Source: Marinobacter nitratireducens (GTDB taxonomy: Bacteria > Pseudomonadota > Gammaproteobacteria > Pseudomonadales > Oleiphilaceae). Taken from it: DNA of 64,000 nucleotides. The position numbers and the translations under genes were made by a program. Of the stretch, positions 4,886 to 10,871 are shown piece by piece. The notes beneath the pieces were generated by a model, which saw only the letters and a program-made list of their open reading frames with translations, searched no databases and was not told where the DNA came from. Location of the stretch: contig NZ_ANIE01000009.1 in assembly GCF_000708045.1 (NCBI RefSeq), positions 62,001 to 126,000 on the forward strand, given 5' to 3'. How positions within the stretch are numbered: the first letter of the stretch is position 1; each line of letters begins with the position of its first letter.

Positions 4886-6289
4886 ATGAACTTTACTGAA
4901 GCCTCCCTGTTCTGGGGATTTCTCGTGGTCTACGGCGTGGTGATGTATGCCCTGTCGCCCCGTAGCCGAAATGCGAATTCGTTCTATAAGGGGGCGGATG
5001 ATCAGGGCAATCCGGTGGGCCAGTGGTCGTTGACGGCCAGTATTTTTATCAGCTGGATCTTTGCCAAGTCGGTTACCAATGCCGCCAACCTGGGCGCGGC
5101 TTACGGGGTTGTCGGCGGGTTGGCCTATGCCAGTTACTGGCTGTCGATTCCGGTGGCGGGTTACATCATCTACCTGATTCGGACTCAGACCGGGGCGAGG
5201 AGCCTGCAGGAGTTTCTGACGTCGCGGTTTGGACGCCTGGCGGCGCTGTCATTTGCGGCGGCGATTCTGATCCGCTTGTACAACGAGGTCTGGAGCAACA
5301 CCGCGGTGGTTGGTGGCTACTTCGGGCTGCCGGGTGAATGGGAGTACTACGCCGCAGCGATGCTGTTTACCGTGTTTACACTGGCCTACAGCCTCAAGGG
5401 CGGTCTGCGGTCGTCGATCTTTACCGATGTCATTCAGGCGTTTGTGTTCGTGTTCTTTGTCGGGGCGGTGCTGTTCCTGATTGTGCCGGCGAACGATACC
5501 AGCGCCCTGCTGAGTAACGGTGAGTTCCGACTCGATGCCGGGTTTGATCTCCTGCTGGTGGCGCTGCTGCAGCTGTTCAGTTATCCGTTCCACGATCCGG
5601 TACTGACCGATCGGGGCTTCGTAAACAAAGAAAAGACCATGCTCAAGAGCTTCGTCGTCGCCGGCCTGCTTGGCTTTGTGGCGGTGTTTATCTTCAGTCT
5701 GGTGGGGGTTCATGCTCGGCTCAATGGCATCGAGGCCATGGGCAATGCGCCGGCTGCGGTTGGGCAGTCGCTGGGGTTGGCGGCGTTGTTCTTCATGAGT
5801 GTGGTGATGATGACGTCTGCCGGCTCCACGCTTGATTCAACCTTTACCTCCCTGGCCAAGTCCCTGGCGGTGGATTTGCCGCGGCTGGCGCAGCGGGCGA
5901 AGGACAAGTTGCCGAGCATGCGCGTGGGTGCAGTGGTGATGGTCGTGTTTGCCCTGCTGGGTAACCTGCCGATGTTTGCCGGTACCGACATTCTCAAGGC
6001 CACCACGATTTCCGGCACCATGGTGATGGGGCTGGCGCCGGTGTTCCTGTTCTACAGCTTTACCCGCTGGTCGCCCTGGAGTTTTCACCTCAGCTTCTGG
6101 ACCGGCATCGGGCTGGGAATTCTGCTGGCGACCGGCCTGATTCCGGACAGCTGGGCCATTGGCGAGGGCAAATACGCCATGTTGTTGGGCGTGAATGCCT
6201 ATGGCTTCCTGATTTGCAGTGCCGGATTCTTCCTGCCGCTTGTGGTGCGCCGGCTGGCCGGCCGTTCACTGGCGGCGGGCGAGATCTGA
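4886..6289 (+). CDS. Sodium:solute symporter (SSS family)
   Basis: A 467-residue inner-membrane protein with about 12-13 hydrophobic segments spread over the whole length and no large soluble domain. The N-terminal part (AKSVTNAANLGAAYG, LAYASYWLSIPVAGYI) and the segment YSLKGGLRSSIFTDVIQ are typical of the SSS/LeuT-fold superfamily (PutP, PanF, SglT), which couples solute uptake to sodium entry. SAGSTLDSTFTSLAKS corresponds to the conserved helix-8 serine region of the sodium site. The substrate cannot be told from sequence. The start codon has an A-rich region with GAAACGACG upstream. It is followed 10 bases later by a phosphoesterase-like gene, probably in the same transcript. Confidence 0.85.
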   Translation: MNFTEASLFWGFLVVYGVVMYALSPRSRNANSFYKGADDQGNPVGQWSLTASIFISWIFAKSVTNAANLGAAYGVVGGLAYASYWLSIPVAGYIIYLIRTQTGARSLQEFLTSRFGRLAALSFAAAILIRLYNEVWSNTAVVGGYFGLPGEWEYYAAAMLFTVFTLAYSLKGGLRSSIFTDVIQAFVFVFFVGAVLFLIVPANDTSALLSNGEFRLDAGFDLLLVALLQLFSYPFHDPVLTDRGFVNKEKTMLKSFVVAGLLGFVAVFIFSLVGVHARLNGIEAMGNAPAAVGQSLGLAALFFMSVVMMTSAGSTLDSTFTSLAKSLAVDLPRLAQRAKDKLPSMRVGAVVMVVFALLGNLPMFAGTDILKATTISGTMVMGLAPVFLFYSFTRWSPWSFHLSFWTGIGLGILLATGLIPDSWAIGEGKYAMLLGVNAYGFLICSAGFFLPLVVRRLAGRSLAAGEI

Positions 6290-6299
6290 GTTGTCCGCT

Positions 6300-7253
6300 A
6301 TGACCGAAGGCCGCAGTTGTCCACTCGCGTACCGCTATGAGCCGGCCAGCCTCTGCAAGAACCCGGAGCCGGTTACCGAGGATGTGCTCTACATTGTCGG
6401 TGGCCTTTATGGCAATCCGCTGGCGTTGGATGAGATCGAGCGTATGGCGGTCGCAGAGGAGCAGGCCGGGCGCCGGGTCCGGTTGGTGTTCAACGGTGAT
6501 TTTAACTGGTTTAACGCCAGTGACGAGCTGTTCCGGGACATCAACGACCGGGTTCTGGCTCATACTGCCAGTCTCGGCAATGTGGAGTATGAACTGGCTG
6601 ATGCCAGTGATGGTGCCGGTTGTGGCTGTGCCTATCCCGAGTTCGTCGATCAGGCCGTGGTGGAGCGGTCCAACCGCATCATGGAGCGACTGCAGTCCAC
6701 TGCAAACCAGTACCCGGATATTCAGGAGCGTCTGGCAGCGTTACCACGCTACCGTTGCCTGATGTTTGGAGGCCTAAAGATTCTGGTTCTGCATGGGGAT
6801 CCTGAATCCCTTGCCGGGTGGGGGTTGGCCCATGAATCCTTTAGTACTGGAAACGATTCTGACGTCAGGCGTTGGCTGGCCGCCACAGGAGCGGACGTCA
6901 TTGCCTGTACCCACACCTGCCTGCCTGTACTCTGGGCAACGGCCACTGAAACCCCCTCCGGCGTGGTGGTGAACAACGGATCTGCCGGCATGGGGAATCT
7001 GAAAGGTGATCGTCGAGGTCTGATAACGCGAATCGCCGCCGGGCCATCGCCCGAGGTGGCGGTAGCCCGCCAAGAAGTCTCGGGACTGGCGGTTTCTCTG
7101 GTGCCGGTGGCCTTTGATGGGGCCGCCTGGCTGGCGTGTTTCGACCAGCTCTGGCCGGCTGGTAGCGATGCTTCGGAGTCTTATCGCCATCGTATTATCA
7201 GCGGCACGGCGCTGGCGCCAGAACAGGTGATGTTTCCTTCCAAAAATTCATGA
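6300..7253 (+). CDS. Metallophosphoesterase-fold protein with a degenerate first metal motif
   Basis: A 317-residue protein laid out like Ser/Thr-phosphatase-type metallophosphoesterases: VGGLYGNPLALDEI aligns with the usual GDIHGN motif, FNGDFNWF with the second GD motif, LVLHGD with the HG motif, and CTHTCLPV with GHTHxP, followed by NNGSAGMGN. The Asp and His of the first motif are replaced by Gly and Tyr, so one metal site is probably lost or altered and activity is uncertain. The start is set at ATG 6300, just after the symporter stop; a TTG at 6291 is an alternative. The 10-base gap to the symporter suggests co-transcription. Confidence 0.65.
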   Translation: MTEGRSCPLAYRYEPASLCKNPEPVTEDVLYIVGGLYGNPLALDEIERMAVAEEQAGRRVRLVFNGDFNWFNASDELFRDINDRVLAHTASLGNVEYELADASDGAGCGCAYPEFVDQAVVERSNRIMERLQSTANQYPDIQERLAALPRYRCLMFGGLKILVLHGDPESLAGWGLAHESFSTGNDSDVRRWLAATGADVIACTHTCLPVLWATATETPSGVVVNNGSAGMGNLKGDRRGLITRIAAGPSPEVAVARQEVSGLAVSLVPVAFDGAAWLACFDQLWPAGSDASESYRHRIISGTALAPEQVMFPSKNS

Positions 7254-7336
7254 AGCTGTCACTGGCGGATGCTTCAATTCAAACTATTCTTAAGTTGTCG
7301 GGGCGGGTGTGTTGCCGTGCACGGAATGACCGCAGC

Positions 7337-7364
7337 TTGAAATATATTTTGTGGTCTATATAAT
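7337..7364 (+). promoter_or_regulatory. Sigma-70 type promoter of the ectoine genes
   Basis: TTGAAA (7337-7342), a 16-bp spacer and TATAAT (7359-7364) lie 35 bases before the ectA start. This is the best consensus promoter in the window. Ectoine promoters in other bacteria often combine sigma-70 and stress-sigma elements. Confidence 0.65.
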
Positions 7365-7398
7365 TCAGCACTAACTTTTGAAGCGAATTGATCACGTT

Positions 7399-7914
7399 AT
7401 GACATCTGAAGGTTCGAATACCACCGCCATCACCCTACGCACACCCACGAAGGATGATGGCTTCAGGCTTAACCAGCTGGTGGCTGAATGCCCGCCGCTG
7501 GACCCCAACTCGATTTACTGCAACCTACTGCAGTGCAGCCACTTTGCCGAAACCGGCGTGGCCGCGGAGAAGGAAGGCGATCTGGTCGGCTTTATCTCCG
7601 GATACATCCCTCCCCAACAGCCCGAGACCGTTTTTGTCTGGCAGGTGGCGGTTCACGAGAAAGGTCGTGGACAGGGCCTCGCCAAGCGGATGCTGAATGA
7701 GATTGTTTCCCGTGATGCCTGCAAGGATGTCACGCACATGGAAACAACCATCACCGCAGACAACGAGGCCTCCTGGGCGCTGTTCCGCTCATTCGCCCGT
7801 GACATGGGAGCCGAGCTCACCTATCACGAGTACTTCGAGAAAGACGCCCACTTCGGCGGGAAGCACGATTCCGAGTTCCTGCTGCGTATCGGGCCTTTCA
7901 AGAAGCCTGTCTGA
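7399..7914 (+). CDS. ectA: L-2,4-diaminobutyric acid acetyltransferase
   Basis: A 171-residue GNAT-family enzyme that acetylates L-2,4-diaminobutyrate to N-gamma-acetyl-diaminobutyrate in ectoine synthesis. It shows the EctA pattern: LRTPTKDDGFRLNQLVAECPPLDPNSIYCNLLQCSHFAETGV near the N-terminus (given here in outline), the acetyl-CoA loop GRGQGLAKRML, and LTYHEYFEKDAHFGG at the C-terminus. Length fits the family (160-190). ATG 7399 is preferred to the TTG at 7378; no strong Shine-Dalgarno sequence precedes either. It leads the ect cluster directly behind a consensus sigma-70 promoter. Confidence 0.93.
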   Translation: MTSEGSNTTAITLRTPTKDDGFRLNQLVAECPPLDPNSIYCNLLQCSHFAETGVAAEKEGDLVGFISGYIPPQQPETVFVWQVAVHEKGRGQGLAKRMLNEIVSRDACKDVTHMETTITADNEASWALFRSFARDMGAELTYHEYFEKDAHFGGKHDSEFLLRIGPFKKPV

Positions 7915-7925
7915 GAGCCCTGAAT

Positions 7926-7994
7926 TCACGATCAGACATCGTGAGTGACGACTGTGAATTGGACTAGCCGGCAAGCCACCCGAGGTGGGCTTGC
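7926..7994 (+). promoter_or_regulatory. Two hairpins between ectA and ectB
   Basis: The 185-base spacer holds a perfect 7-bp stem TCACGAT/ATCGTGA (7926-7944) and a second 7-bp stem GCAAGCC/GGCTTGC (7971-7994). Neither is followed by a T-run, so RNA processing or stabilisation between the two cistrons is likelier than termination. Confidence 0.45.
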
Positions 7995-8099
7995 TATCAA
8001 GGCTTAAACCAACGCACGGCGGGCTTGTCGCGACCGAAACGTTTTACCGACAGGCTGCCGCGCATCTACCTCGAACCTGACATGCTAAGAGGCAAGACA

Positions 8100-9368
8100 A
8101 TGGAAATTTTCAAGTCTACTGAATCCGAAGTACGTGTTTATTCCCGTGCCTTCCCGGTGATTTTTAACCGCGCCAAGAACGCGCATCTGTACACCGAAGA
8201 TGGCAAGGAATACCTGGACTTTCTGGCCGGTGCCGGTTCCCTGAACTACGGCCACAACAACGATATTCTCAAAAAAGCCCTGATCGAATACATCGAATCG
8301 GACGGCGTCAGCCAGGGCCTGGACCTGTTCACCACCGCCAAGCATGACTTCATGGAATCCTACAAGAAGTACATCCTTGAGCCCCGTGGCCTGAACTACA
8401 AGATGCAGTTTACCGGCCCGACCGGTACCAACTGTGTGGAAGCAGCCATGAAGCTGGCGCGGAAGGTGAAAGGCCGTACCGGCATCATCTCCTTCACCAA
8501 TGGCTTCCACGGCGTGACCACTGGTGCTGTCGCGGCAACTGGTAACAAGCATCACCGTGGTGGTGTGGGTATGCCGCTGAACAACGTGGATTTCATGTTC
8601 TATGACGGCTACCTGGGTGAAGACGTCGACACCCTGAAGATCATGGACAAAGTGCTGTCCGACAGCTCCTCCGGTGTTGAACTGCCGGCGGCGGTGATTG
8701 TTGAGGCGGTTCAGGGTGAAGGTGGCCTGAACGCTGCCCGCGCTGAATGGCTCAAGGGTCTGTCCGAGCTCTGCAAGAAGCACGATATCCTGTTGATTCT
8801 GGATGACATCCAGGCGGGTAACGGTCGTACCGGCGAGTTCTTCAGCTTCGAATTTGCTGGCATCAAGCCGGACATCGTGACGGTATCCAAGTCCCTGAGT
8901 GGCTACGGACTGCCGATGGCACTGGTACTGTTCAAGCCGGAGCTGGACGTTTGGGAGTCGGGTGAGCACAACGGTACCTTCCGTGGGAACAACATGGCGT
9001 TTGTTACCGCGCGCGCTGCCGTCGAGAACTACTGGAAGGACGATGCCTTTGCCAACGAGGTCAAGGCCAAGACCAAGGTACTGGGCGATGCCCTGCAGGC
9101 CATCTGCGACAAGTATCCGGGCGAGTTCCACGTCAAGGGTCGCGGCCTGATGCGCGGTATCGAGGCGAAAAACGCCGACCTGACCGGTGACATCACCAGC
9201 CGTGCTTTCGAGAAAGGCCTGATCATCGAGACCAGTGGCCCGAACGATGAAGTCATCAAATGCCTGATGCCGCTGACCACCAGCGAGGAAGACCTGAAGA
9301 AGGGTGTTGCCCTGCTGGCGGCAAGCGTCGACGAAATCATGCAGGAGGGAGTCAGCGAGGCGTCCTGA
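8100..9368 (+). CDS. ectB: Diaminobutyrate-2-oxoglutarate transaminase
   Basis: A 422-residue PLP-dependent class III aminotransferase that converts L-aspartate-4-semialdehyde to L-2,4-diaminobutyrate with glutamate as donor. Family marks: [19 protein letters not shown] at the N-terminus, [13 protein letters not shown], the PLP-site motif [20 protein letters not shown] and the Schiff-base lysine in [15 protein letters not shown]. Length is normal for EctB. ATG 8100 is chosen over an upstream alternative at 8025 because AAGAGGCAAG precedes it and EctB proteins begin here. Only 51 bases separate it from the aspartokinase; the ectoine synthase gene usually found at this place is missing. Confidence 0.95.
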
Positions 9369-9419
9369 GACGCCCGCGGTTCCGGGACATTCATTCTGCA
9401 GGATAGCGAAGGCAAACCT

Positions 9420-10871
9420 ATGACTACTGCACAGCATACCGTCGAGAAGATCGGCGGTACTTCCATGAGCAATTACGAGGCCGTGCGCGACAACATTGTT
9501 GTTGGCAGTCGCAGCAAGGACGACCTCTATCAGCGCATCTTCGTGGTGTCCGCCTATGGCGGCGTCACCAACGAGCTGCTGGAACACAAAAAGACCGGCG
9601 AGCCGGGTGTTTACGCCCTGTTTGCCGATGCCGAATCCGACTGGGCCTGGGGGGACGATCTCACCAAGCTGGTGAAGTTCCTCACCGATATCAACGGTGA
9701 GCTGTTCGAAGATCCCATGCTCAAACAGCAGGCTGACCAGTTCATCACCGATCGCATTGAGGGTGTACGCGGCTGCCTGATCGATCTGCAGCGTCTGTGC
9801 TCCTATGGCCAGTTCCAGCTGGAAGAGCATCTGCTGACCGTTCGCGAAATGCTGGCGGGTATCGGCGAAGCCCACAGTGCGTTCAACACCGCACTGAAGC
9901 TCCAGCAAGAGGGCATCAATGCGCGTTTCGTCGACCTGACAGGCTGGCGCGATGCCGAATTGCTGCCGCTGGACGAAAAGCTTCAGCAGGCCTTTGATGC
10001 CGTTGATCTGAGCCGCGAACTACCGATCTGCACCGGCTATGCCCAGTGCAAGGAAGGTCTGATGCGGACGTTCGACCGTGGCTACAGCGAAATGACCTTC
10101 AGCCGGGTGGCGGTGATCACTAATGCCCGCGAAGCGATTATCCACAAGGAGTATCACCTGAGCTCCGCCGATCCCAACATCGTGGGCGAGGACAAGGTGG
10201 TGCCGTTGGGTCGCACCAATTACGACGTGGCTGATCAACTGGCCAACCTGGGGATGGAAGCCATTCACCCCCGTGCCGGTAAGGGGTTGCGTCAGAACGA
10301 GATCCCGCTGCGGGTGATGAACACCTTCGAGCCGGAGCACACCGGTACCCTGATCACCGGCGATTACGTCAGTGAGATGGCTCAGGTGGAAATCATTGCC
10401 GGTGCCAAGGGTGTGTTTGCCATCGAGGTGTTTGATCAGGACATGCAGGGTGAGCCGGGTTCGGACCGCAAGATCCTGGATGTGTTGAGCCGCTTCAAGG
10501 TGCGCTTCATGTCCAAGGACACCAACGCCAACACCATTACCCACTACGTGGATACCACGCTCAAGCACGTGAAACGCGTGGTCAAGGCGCTTGAGGAAGC
10601 TTTTCCCAACGCCGAGATCGGTACCCGTAAGGTGGCTCTGGTGTCTGCCATTGGCAGTGACATGAAGGTGCCGGGTATCCTGGCGCGTTCGGTGAAATCG
10701 CTGGCGGACAGAGACATCAGTGTACTGGCCATTCATCAGTGCATGCGTCAGGTGGATATCCAGTTCGTGATTGATGAAGACCACTATGAAAGCGCCATCA
10801 GCGCTCTGCATGGAGCACTGATTGAGCCGCATAATCACGAGTACGCCATCGTGGCGGCATCCATCGAGTAA
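9420..10871 (+). CDS. ask: Ectoine-cluster aspartate kinase
   Basis: A 483-residue aspartokinase of the Ask_Ect type, phosphorylating aspartate to feed aspartate semialdehyde into ectoine. The amino acid kinase motif VEKIGGTSMS lies at the N-terminus, and paired ACT domains occupy the C-terminal third (KVALVSAIGSDMKVPGILARS and DISVLAIHQCMRQVDIQFV). This subgroup is typically encoded at the end of ect operons and is thought to escape feedback by lysine and threonine. AGGATAGCGAAGG lies upstream of ATG 9420. It follows ectB by 51 bases, without a terminator. Confidence 0.93.
   Translation: MTTAQHTVEKIGGTSMSNYEAVRDNIVVGSRSKDDLYQRIFVVSAYGGVTNELLEHKKTGEPGVYALFADAESDWAWGDDLTKLVKFLTDINGELFEDPMLKQQADQFITDRIEGVRGCLIDLQRLCSYGQFQLEEHLLTVREMLAGIGEAHSAFNTALKLQQEGINARFVDLTGWRDAELLPLDEKLQQAFDAVDLSRELPICTGYAQCKEGLMRTFDRGYSEMTFSRVAVITNAREAIIHKEYHLSSADPNIVGEDKVVPLGRTNYDVADQLANLGMEAIHPRAGKGLRQNEIPLRVMNTFEPEHTGTLITGDYVSEMAQVEIIAGAKGVFAIEVFDQDMQGEPGSDRKILDVLSRFKVRFMSKDTNANTITHYVDTTLKHVKRVVKALEEAFPNAEIGTRKVALVSAIGSDMKVPGILARSVKSLADRDISVLAIHQCMRQVDIQFVIDEDHYESAISALHGALIEPHNHEYAIVAASIE

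Follow-up and report, generated by a model that had tools for sequence, protein, structure and literature searches.

The ectoine cluster in the window

The window analysed here is a stretch of 64,000 nucleotides from Marinobacter nitratireducens (contig NZ_ANIE01000009.1; G000:C9:62001-126000, where G000 is this genome), and it carries ectA, ectB and the aspartokinase gene ask_ect of ectoine synthesis with the ectoine synthase gene, ectC, missing from its place between ectB and ask_ect. The three genes are intact, lie on the plus strand in the usual order, as the first-pass annotation of this DNA had said, and score above the curated cut-offs in profile searches (TIGR02406, 120.6 bits; TIGR02407, 552.2 bits; NF006614, 536 bits; Table 1). 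The score of ectA was taken from the mechanical TTG start at 7378, and the genus alignment keeps the ATG at 7400. The aspartokinase is of the ectoine type, as its NF006614 score exceeds the cut-off and its gene starts 51 bp past ectB. No remnant of ectC was found in these 51 bases between the ectB stop and the ask_ect start, or anywhere else in the window, by tblastn with the EctC of this genome and the in-cluster EctC of one order-mate as queries (best E 0.35). Over 23 Marinobacter loci, including this one, the gap is 19-107 bases long, and in 21 of them it is 50-62 bases.

Upstream of ectA is a conserved block, CTTGAAATATATTTTGTGGTCTATATAATT, with TTGAAA at 7337-7342, a 16-base spacer and TATAAT at 7359-7364, and it is probably the ectA promoter. 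Position 7337, from which the annotation had counted the cluster, is thus a -35-like box and not the start of a gene. An imperfect inverted repeat, seen by eye only, is at 7971-7994 in the 185-bp interval between ectA and ectB. Further upstream of ectA, at 4886-6289, there is a sodium/solute symporter-like gene that scores 50.6 bits with TIGR00813, below the cut-off of 184, and that could code for a solute transporter.

Table 1. Features of the ectoine cluster, in window coordinates
Feature	Position	Strand	Evidence
Promoter-like block 5' of ectA	7336..7365	+	near-invariant in 23 aligned genus loci
ectA, diaminobutyrate acetyltransferase	7400..7914	+	TIGR02406 210.7 bits, start by alignment
ectB, diaminobutyrate--2-oxoglutarate transaminase	8100..9368	+	TIGR02407 635.6 bits
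51-base gap; place of ectC in ectABC-ask clusters of order relatives	9369..9419		locus comparison
ask_ect, ectoine-type aspartokinase	9420..10871	+	NF006614 780.5 bits

ectC and ectD are elsewhere in the genome

The annotation had proposed searching the full genome for ectC and ectD, and both genes were located. A profile search with PF06339 found one ectC above the cut-off of 27 bits, an intact open reading frame of 131 amino acids at G000:C9:32-427 on the minus strand (197.2 bits). It is on the same contig as ectA, about 69 kb away on the opposite strand and at the very end of the contig, and it starts 49 bases past a gene for a DUF3482 GTPase. A second PF06339 match, at C3:779058-779324, scored 21.8 bits, which is below the cut-off, and was not counted as ectC. 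The ectD gene is at G000:C8:85796-86614 (378 bits, cut-off 336.5). Thus EctA, EctB and EctC are all encoded, so that the gene set of the ectoine pathway is complete, and EctD is encoded as well, while the arrangement is not a canonical ectABC operon because ectC is not beside ectAB. Between the two alternatives that the annotation had left, namely, an ectC gene elsewhere or a cluster whose product is N-gamma-acetyl-diaminobutyrate, the first is borne out, with a conserved promoter-like element in front of ectC, and the second is unsupported given that ectC and ectD are present. An ectC gene in another place was also among the outcomes that the annotation had said would refute it.

The encoded EctC has the same residue as Paenibacillus lautus EctC at 10 of 11 metal, substrate, product or tested positions in an alignment read by eye (positions and numbering from PMC6344544; this and the other papers given by PMC number are cited from excerpts). 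At the position of Asn38 it has a His, as does the solved ectoine synthase 5bxx. Among the best 80 of the 239 EctC loci found, which are the named loci referred to below, 65 are labelled Marinobacter and the EctC identity is up to 99% (M. daepoensis).

In 64 of these 80 loci ectC follows the DUF3482 GTPase gene, and this is the main Marinobacter site. The element TTGA-N17-TGTTTATA[CT]T precedes the ectC start in 59 of the 64 main-site loci and the remaining five carry TGTGTATACT; in mononucleotide shuffles the element was found in 0 of 3200. Its conservation suggests that it is the promoter of ectC. A comparison of the two elements gave no grounds for one promoter type in front of both ectA and ectC: each starts with TTGAA, but the spacing and the -10 differ, and no common regulator is claimed. 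Extra ectC copies or pieces of ectC are present in five genomes of the genus (G002, G008, G009, G024 and G036), and some of them have a different upstream sequence, in which CTTGAAATATAT precedes the same TGTTTATACT element.

The split arrangement in the genus and in the order

The genus set comprised 37 genomes, this one and 36 others. ectC was found in all 37, ectB in 35 and ask in 36 (in G036 ask is a partial match only). The genomes with no ectB match are G033, which is 62% complete, and G026, where ectB was not found at E 1e-100; in G026, a genome of one contig, the locus (L253, G026:C1:148000-158000) has ectA at 6830-7345 and then, after 194 bp, ask at 7540-9000. In 25 of the 35 genomes that have both genes, ectB and ectC are on one contig, and in the other 10 they are on separate contigs. 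In all 25 genomes with the two genes on one contig, ectC and ectB are divergently oriented, with 54.6-114.5 kb between them (median 71.6 kb). A separate ectC locus is therefore the ordinary state of the genus and is shared genus-wide. Among eight order relatives outside the genus that have both genes, the two are adjacent in six (G041, G042, G051, G053, G055 and G057), about 2.3 kb apart and divergent in G047, and on two contigs in G038. The ectABC-ask clusters of these relatives, for example those of G041, G051 and G055, match M. nitratireducens in the order of their ectB and ask orthologues, but they differ in having ectC between ectB and ask and in that this EctC belongs to a different lineage. 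Besides ectB, the genomes G041, G058, G059, G061, G063, G065, G068, G069 and G070 encode a second EctB-like transaminase (513-538 bits, below the cut-off of 552.2).

The split of ectAB from ectC in Marinobacter is already in print. In M. hydrocarbonoclasticus there are three ectC open reading frames, none near ectAB (PMC3187862), and most Marinobacter have ectA and ectB together and ectC apart, some with two or three ectC copies (PMC5818414). The layout in M. nitratireducens is the same, with one ectC above the cut-off where some of the published strains have two or three.

A solitary EctC lineage

Sixteen of the 80 named loci have ectC away from the main site, including a second copy in M. 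halophilus. The other hosts are Nitrincola (two), an Oceanospirillales metagenome-assembled genome (MAG), Kineobactrum, Porticoccus, Halomonas, Vreelandella, Saccharospirillum (three), Thiomicrospira, Oceanibium, Roseisalinus, Salinihabitans and a Desulfobacteraceae MAG. At E 1e-20 none of EctA, EctB and Ask was found in the flanks of these 16 loci, which extend to 8 kb at most and in L098 and L121 have almost no upstream part. We call this type of EctC solitary. An ectB above the cut-off is elsewhere in all 15 off-site genomes searched. Five of the 15 (G061, G062, G064, G071 and G072) have both EctC types, and their second EctC is beside ectB and is 44-60% identical to that of M. nitratireducens. 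Nine others have a single EctC, of the solitary type, and the two EctCs of M. halophilus (G067) are both of that type. In eight of the nine solitary-only genomes ask follows ectB after a gap of 14-332 bp; in the ninth, Thiomicrospira (G066), no ask was seen. Within the genus the solitary-lineage EctC is the sole EctC above the cut-off in 32 of the 37 genomes.

The identities of EctC and EctB do not run in parallel. In 14 genomes outside the genus the solitary EctC is 90-96% identical to that of M. nitratireducens and EctB only 49-62%, and in six order relatives the in-cluster EctC is 46-55% identical and EctB 57-63%. The EctC tree unites Marinobacter with all solitary EctCs in one clade (support 100/99), which also takes in two class-level genomes at 81-82% identity. 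Forcing Marinobacter together with the in-cluster EctCs of its order was rejected by the approximately unbiased (AU) test (p_AU 5.9e-7). The EctB tree places Marinobacter as one clade (100/100) among members of its order, and forcing all genomes with solitary EctC together was rejected (p_AU 6.4e-4). The presence or absence of an in-cluster ectC requires at least six state changes on the EctB tree. Thus, EctC and its pathway partner EctB give conflicting trees and some genomes retain both versions of EctC, which fits xenologous displacement of the in-cluster ectC.

Proposed displacement of the in-cluster ectC

On these sequence comparisons, we consider it highly probable that M. nitratireducens has a complete but split ectoine pathway in which a solitary ectC displaced the in-cluster copy. 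Ask_Ect would supply aspartyl phosphate, EctB would form diaminobutyrate and EctA N-gamma-acetyl-diaminobutyrate, and EctC, made from a gene about 69 kb off on the other strand with a promoter-like element of its own, would close the ring to give ectoine, which EctD could hydroxylate. We infer that these enzymes are active and are co-induced by salt. The solitary EctC would not be the ancestral partner of the EctB in this genome but would come from a separate, highly conserved EctC lineage gained horizontally. The order that we propose is that a foreign solitary ectC was acquired, that a stage with two copies followed and that the in-cluster ectC was then deleted without trace. This would have happened more than once, and the same displacement appears to have taken place in several other genera. 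Our guess, from the similarity to Spiribacter described in PMC5818414, is that the donor was among the Ectothiorhodospiraceae.

Several observations weigh against this reading or narrow it. The identity at four-fold sites between ectC of M. nitratireducens and nine ectCs from outside the genus is 0.24-0.55, where saturation would give 0.23-0.38; about four of the nine pairs are at or near saturation (Nitrincola, Kineobactrum, Thiomicrospira and Roseisalinus), and the remaining pairs exceed it, those with H. salicampi and Porticoccus by the widest margin. Several of the transfers are therefore old, constraint accounts for part of the high protein identity, and the case for displacement rests on the conflict between the trees. 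A general recent transfer, which had been suspected from the 96% protein identity, was dropped because of this saturation. Marinobacter is not one clade in the EctC tree (6 changes) and the EctCs of the genus are 84-97% identical to that of M. nitratireducens, some of them below the 96% of Nitrincola; ectC may thus have entered or left the genus several times. The groups for the AU tests were picked after the identities were known, the EctC alignment has 131 columns, branches inside the solitary clade are weak, and two long-branch sequences in it (G224 and G301) are probably misplaced. The loci from outside the genus were fetched by EctC similarity and are a biased sample for counting losses. 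Moreover, the element in front of ectC was found in just one of the 16 off-site loci, one of which (L121) is nearly without upstream sequence.

If, instead, the ancestral in-cluster ectC had moved within the genome, with no foreign copy involved, the layout would be identical, and PMC5818414 ascribes the extra ectC copies of Marinobacter to duplication and places transposase genes close to some of them. Such a relocation is unlikely because Marinobacter EctC does not go with the in-cluster EctCs of its order, as the rejected constraint on the EctC tree shows, whereas its EctB does group with the order, and because five genomes have EctCs of both types. It is also conceivable that the product of the solitary EctC is not ectoine but, for example, another cyclic amidine, perhaps made with a linked ATP-grasp enzyme, since the lineage is hyper-conserved, an ATP-grasp gene is within about 3 kb of ectC at 9 of the 16 off-site loci and five genomes retain an in-cluster EctC besides. 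This we regard as very unlikely. The solitary type is the only EctC above the cut-off in the nine solitary-only off-site genomes and in most of the genus, so that no other enzyme is there to finish ectoine; its catalytic residues match those of ectoine synthase; and Spiribacter, with a scrambled ect set and a related EctC, produces ectoine (PMC5818414). That the cluster ends in N-gamma-acetyl-diaminobutyrate would agree with its having no ectC of its own but is hardly credible with an intact ectC on the same contig, ectD in the genome and ectC kept throughout the genus. An assembly deletion at 9368-9420, which the annotation had also allowed for, has a negligible probability because the short gap between ectB and ask recurs in the 22 other genus loci measured, all from other genomes, and the ectC locus is separate genus-wide.

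The displacement reading can also be set beside other published systems. In Spiribacter salinus the ect genes are likewise separated (ectAC/ectB) and the EctC is a relative of the Marinobacter enzyme, but in that species it is ectB that stands apart, and ask_ect is missing (PMC5818414). The solitary ectC genes of genomes without ectAB are, like the one studied here, outside an ect cluster; in the excerpts of PMC5924519 they fall mostly in basal groups of the EctC tree and have no ectAB, unlike M. nitratireducens, which has ectAB-ask. In-cluster EctCs generally track taxonomy, with exceptions that are probably due to lateral transfer (PMC5924519), and the mere idea that ect genes are transferred horizontally is therefore not new. 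The explanation by duplication in PMC5818414 concerns extra copies and, in the excerpts, does not involve a foreign EctC lineage replacing the in-cluster one. Our literature searches found, among the papers listed, no report of an in-cluster ectC displaced by a foreign lineage, and displacement as the cause of the split is possibly new. If it is true, then the signature enzyme of ectoine synthesis has been exchanged apart from the rest of the pathway, EctC trees, a common means of tracing ectoine producers, do not have to follow ectAB, and there would be a reason for the scrambled ect genes of many marine bacteria.

An ATP-grasp gene associated with EctC

The ATP-grasp protein encoded near ectC at the nine off-site loci is conserved and about 435-440 amino acids long, and at a tenth locus (L098) it is in broken pieces. 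A PF15887-type metallopeptidase is close by at six of the 16 loci, with an M17 aminopeptidase as well at two of the six. In two samples of genomes the ATP-grasp gene was present in 16 of 370 and in 13 of 397, always among the genomes with EctC (55 and 68, respectively). The samples share G000 and G388, which leaves 27 distinct ATP-grasp genomes, and all 27 have EctC. For the first sample the hypergeometric probability is 7e-15, or 7.5e-11 when counted by genus, figures that ignore relatedness and a possible confounding by salt niche. The copy in M. nitratireducens is at G000:C7:188241-189467 on the minus strand and is followed by a gene for a protein of up to 683 amino acids (L250:6160-8211, minus strand), which had no match in Pfam, NCBIfam or the PDB. 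In G038 the order is ATP-grasp, a 668-amino-acid protein and ectC, the last clipped by the contig end. AlphaFold models were too poor to use, the mean pLDDT (predicted local distance difference test) being 48.6 for a 662-amino-acid relative of the partner protein and 41.8 for the ATP-grasp protein.

From its weak similarity to ATP-grasp and L-amino acid ligase sequences, we guess that the ATP-grasp protein could be an amide-forming ligase. The gene is missing in five of the 37 genomes of the genus, all of which have ectC (G005, G012, G013, G031 and the incomplete G033), so that ectoine synthesis can probably do without it. A literature search found no paper that joins ectoine synthase and ATP-grasp. 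A broader proposal is that a hyper-conserved, stand-alone EctC has spread between bacterial classes, repeatedly replacing the in-cluster synthase, and is tied to an unrecognised module, in which the ATP-grasp ligase is often adjacent to the protein of about 670 amino acids and which possibly makes a new ectoine-related or amide-linked solute; we hold this proposal, taken as a whole, to be doubtful. The lead does point to an unstudied pair of genes that is linked to ectoine producers.

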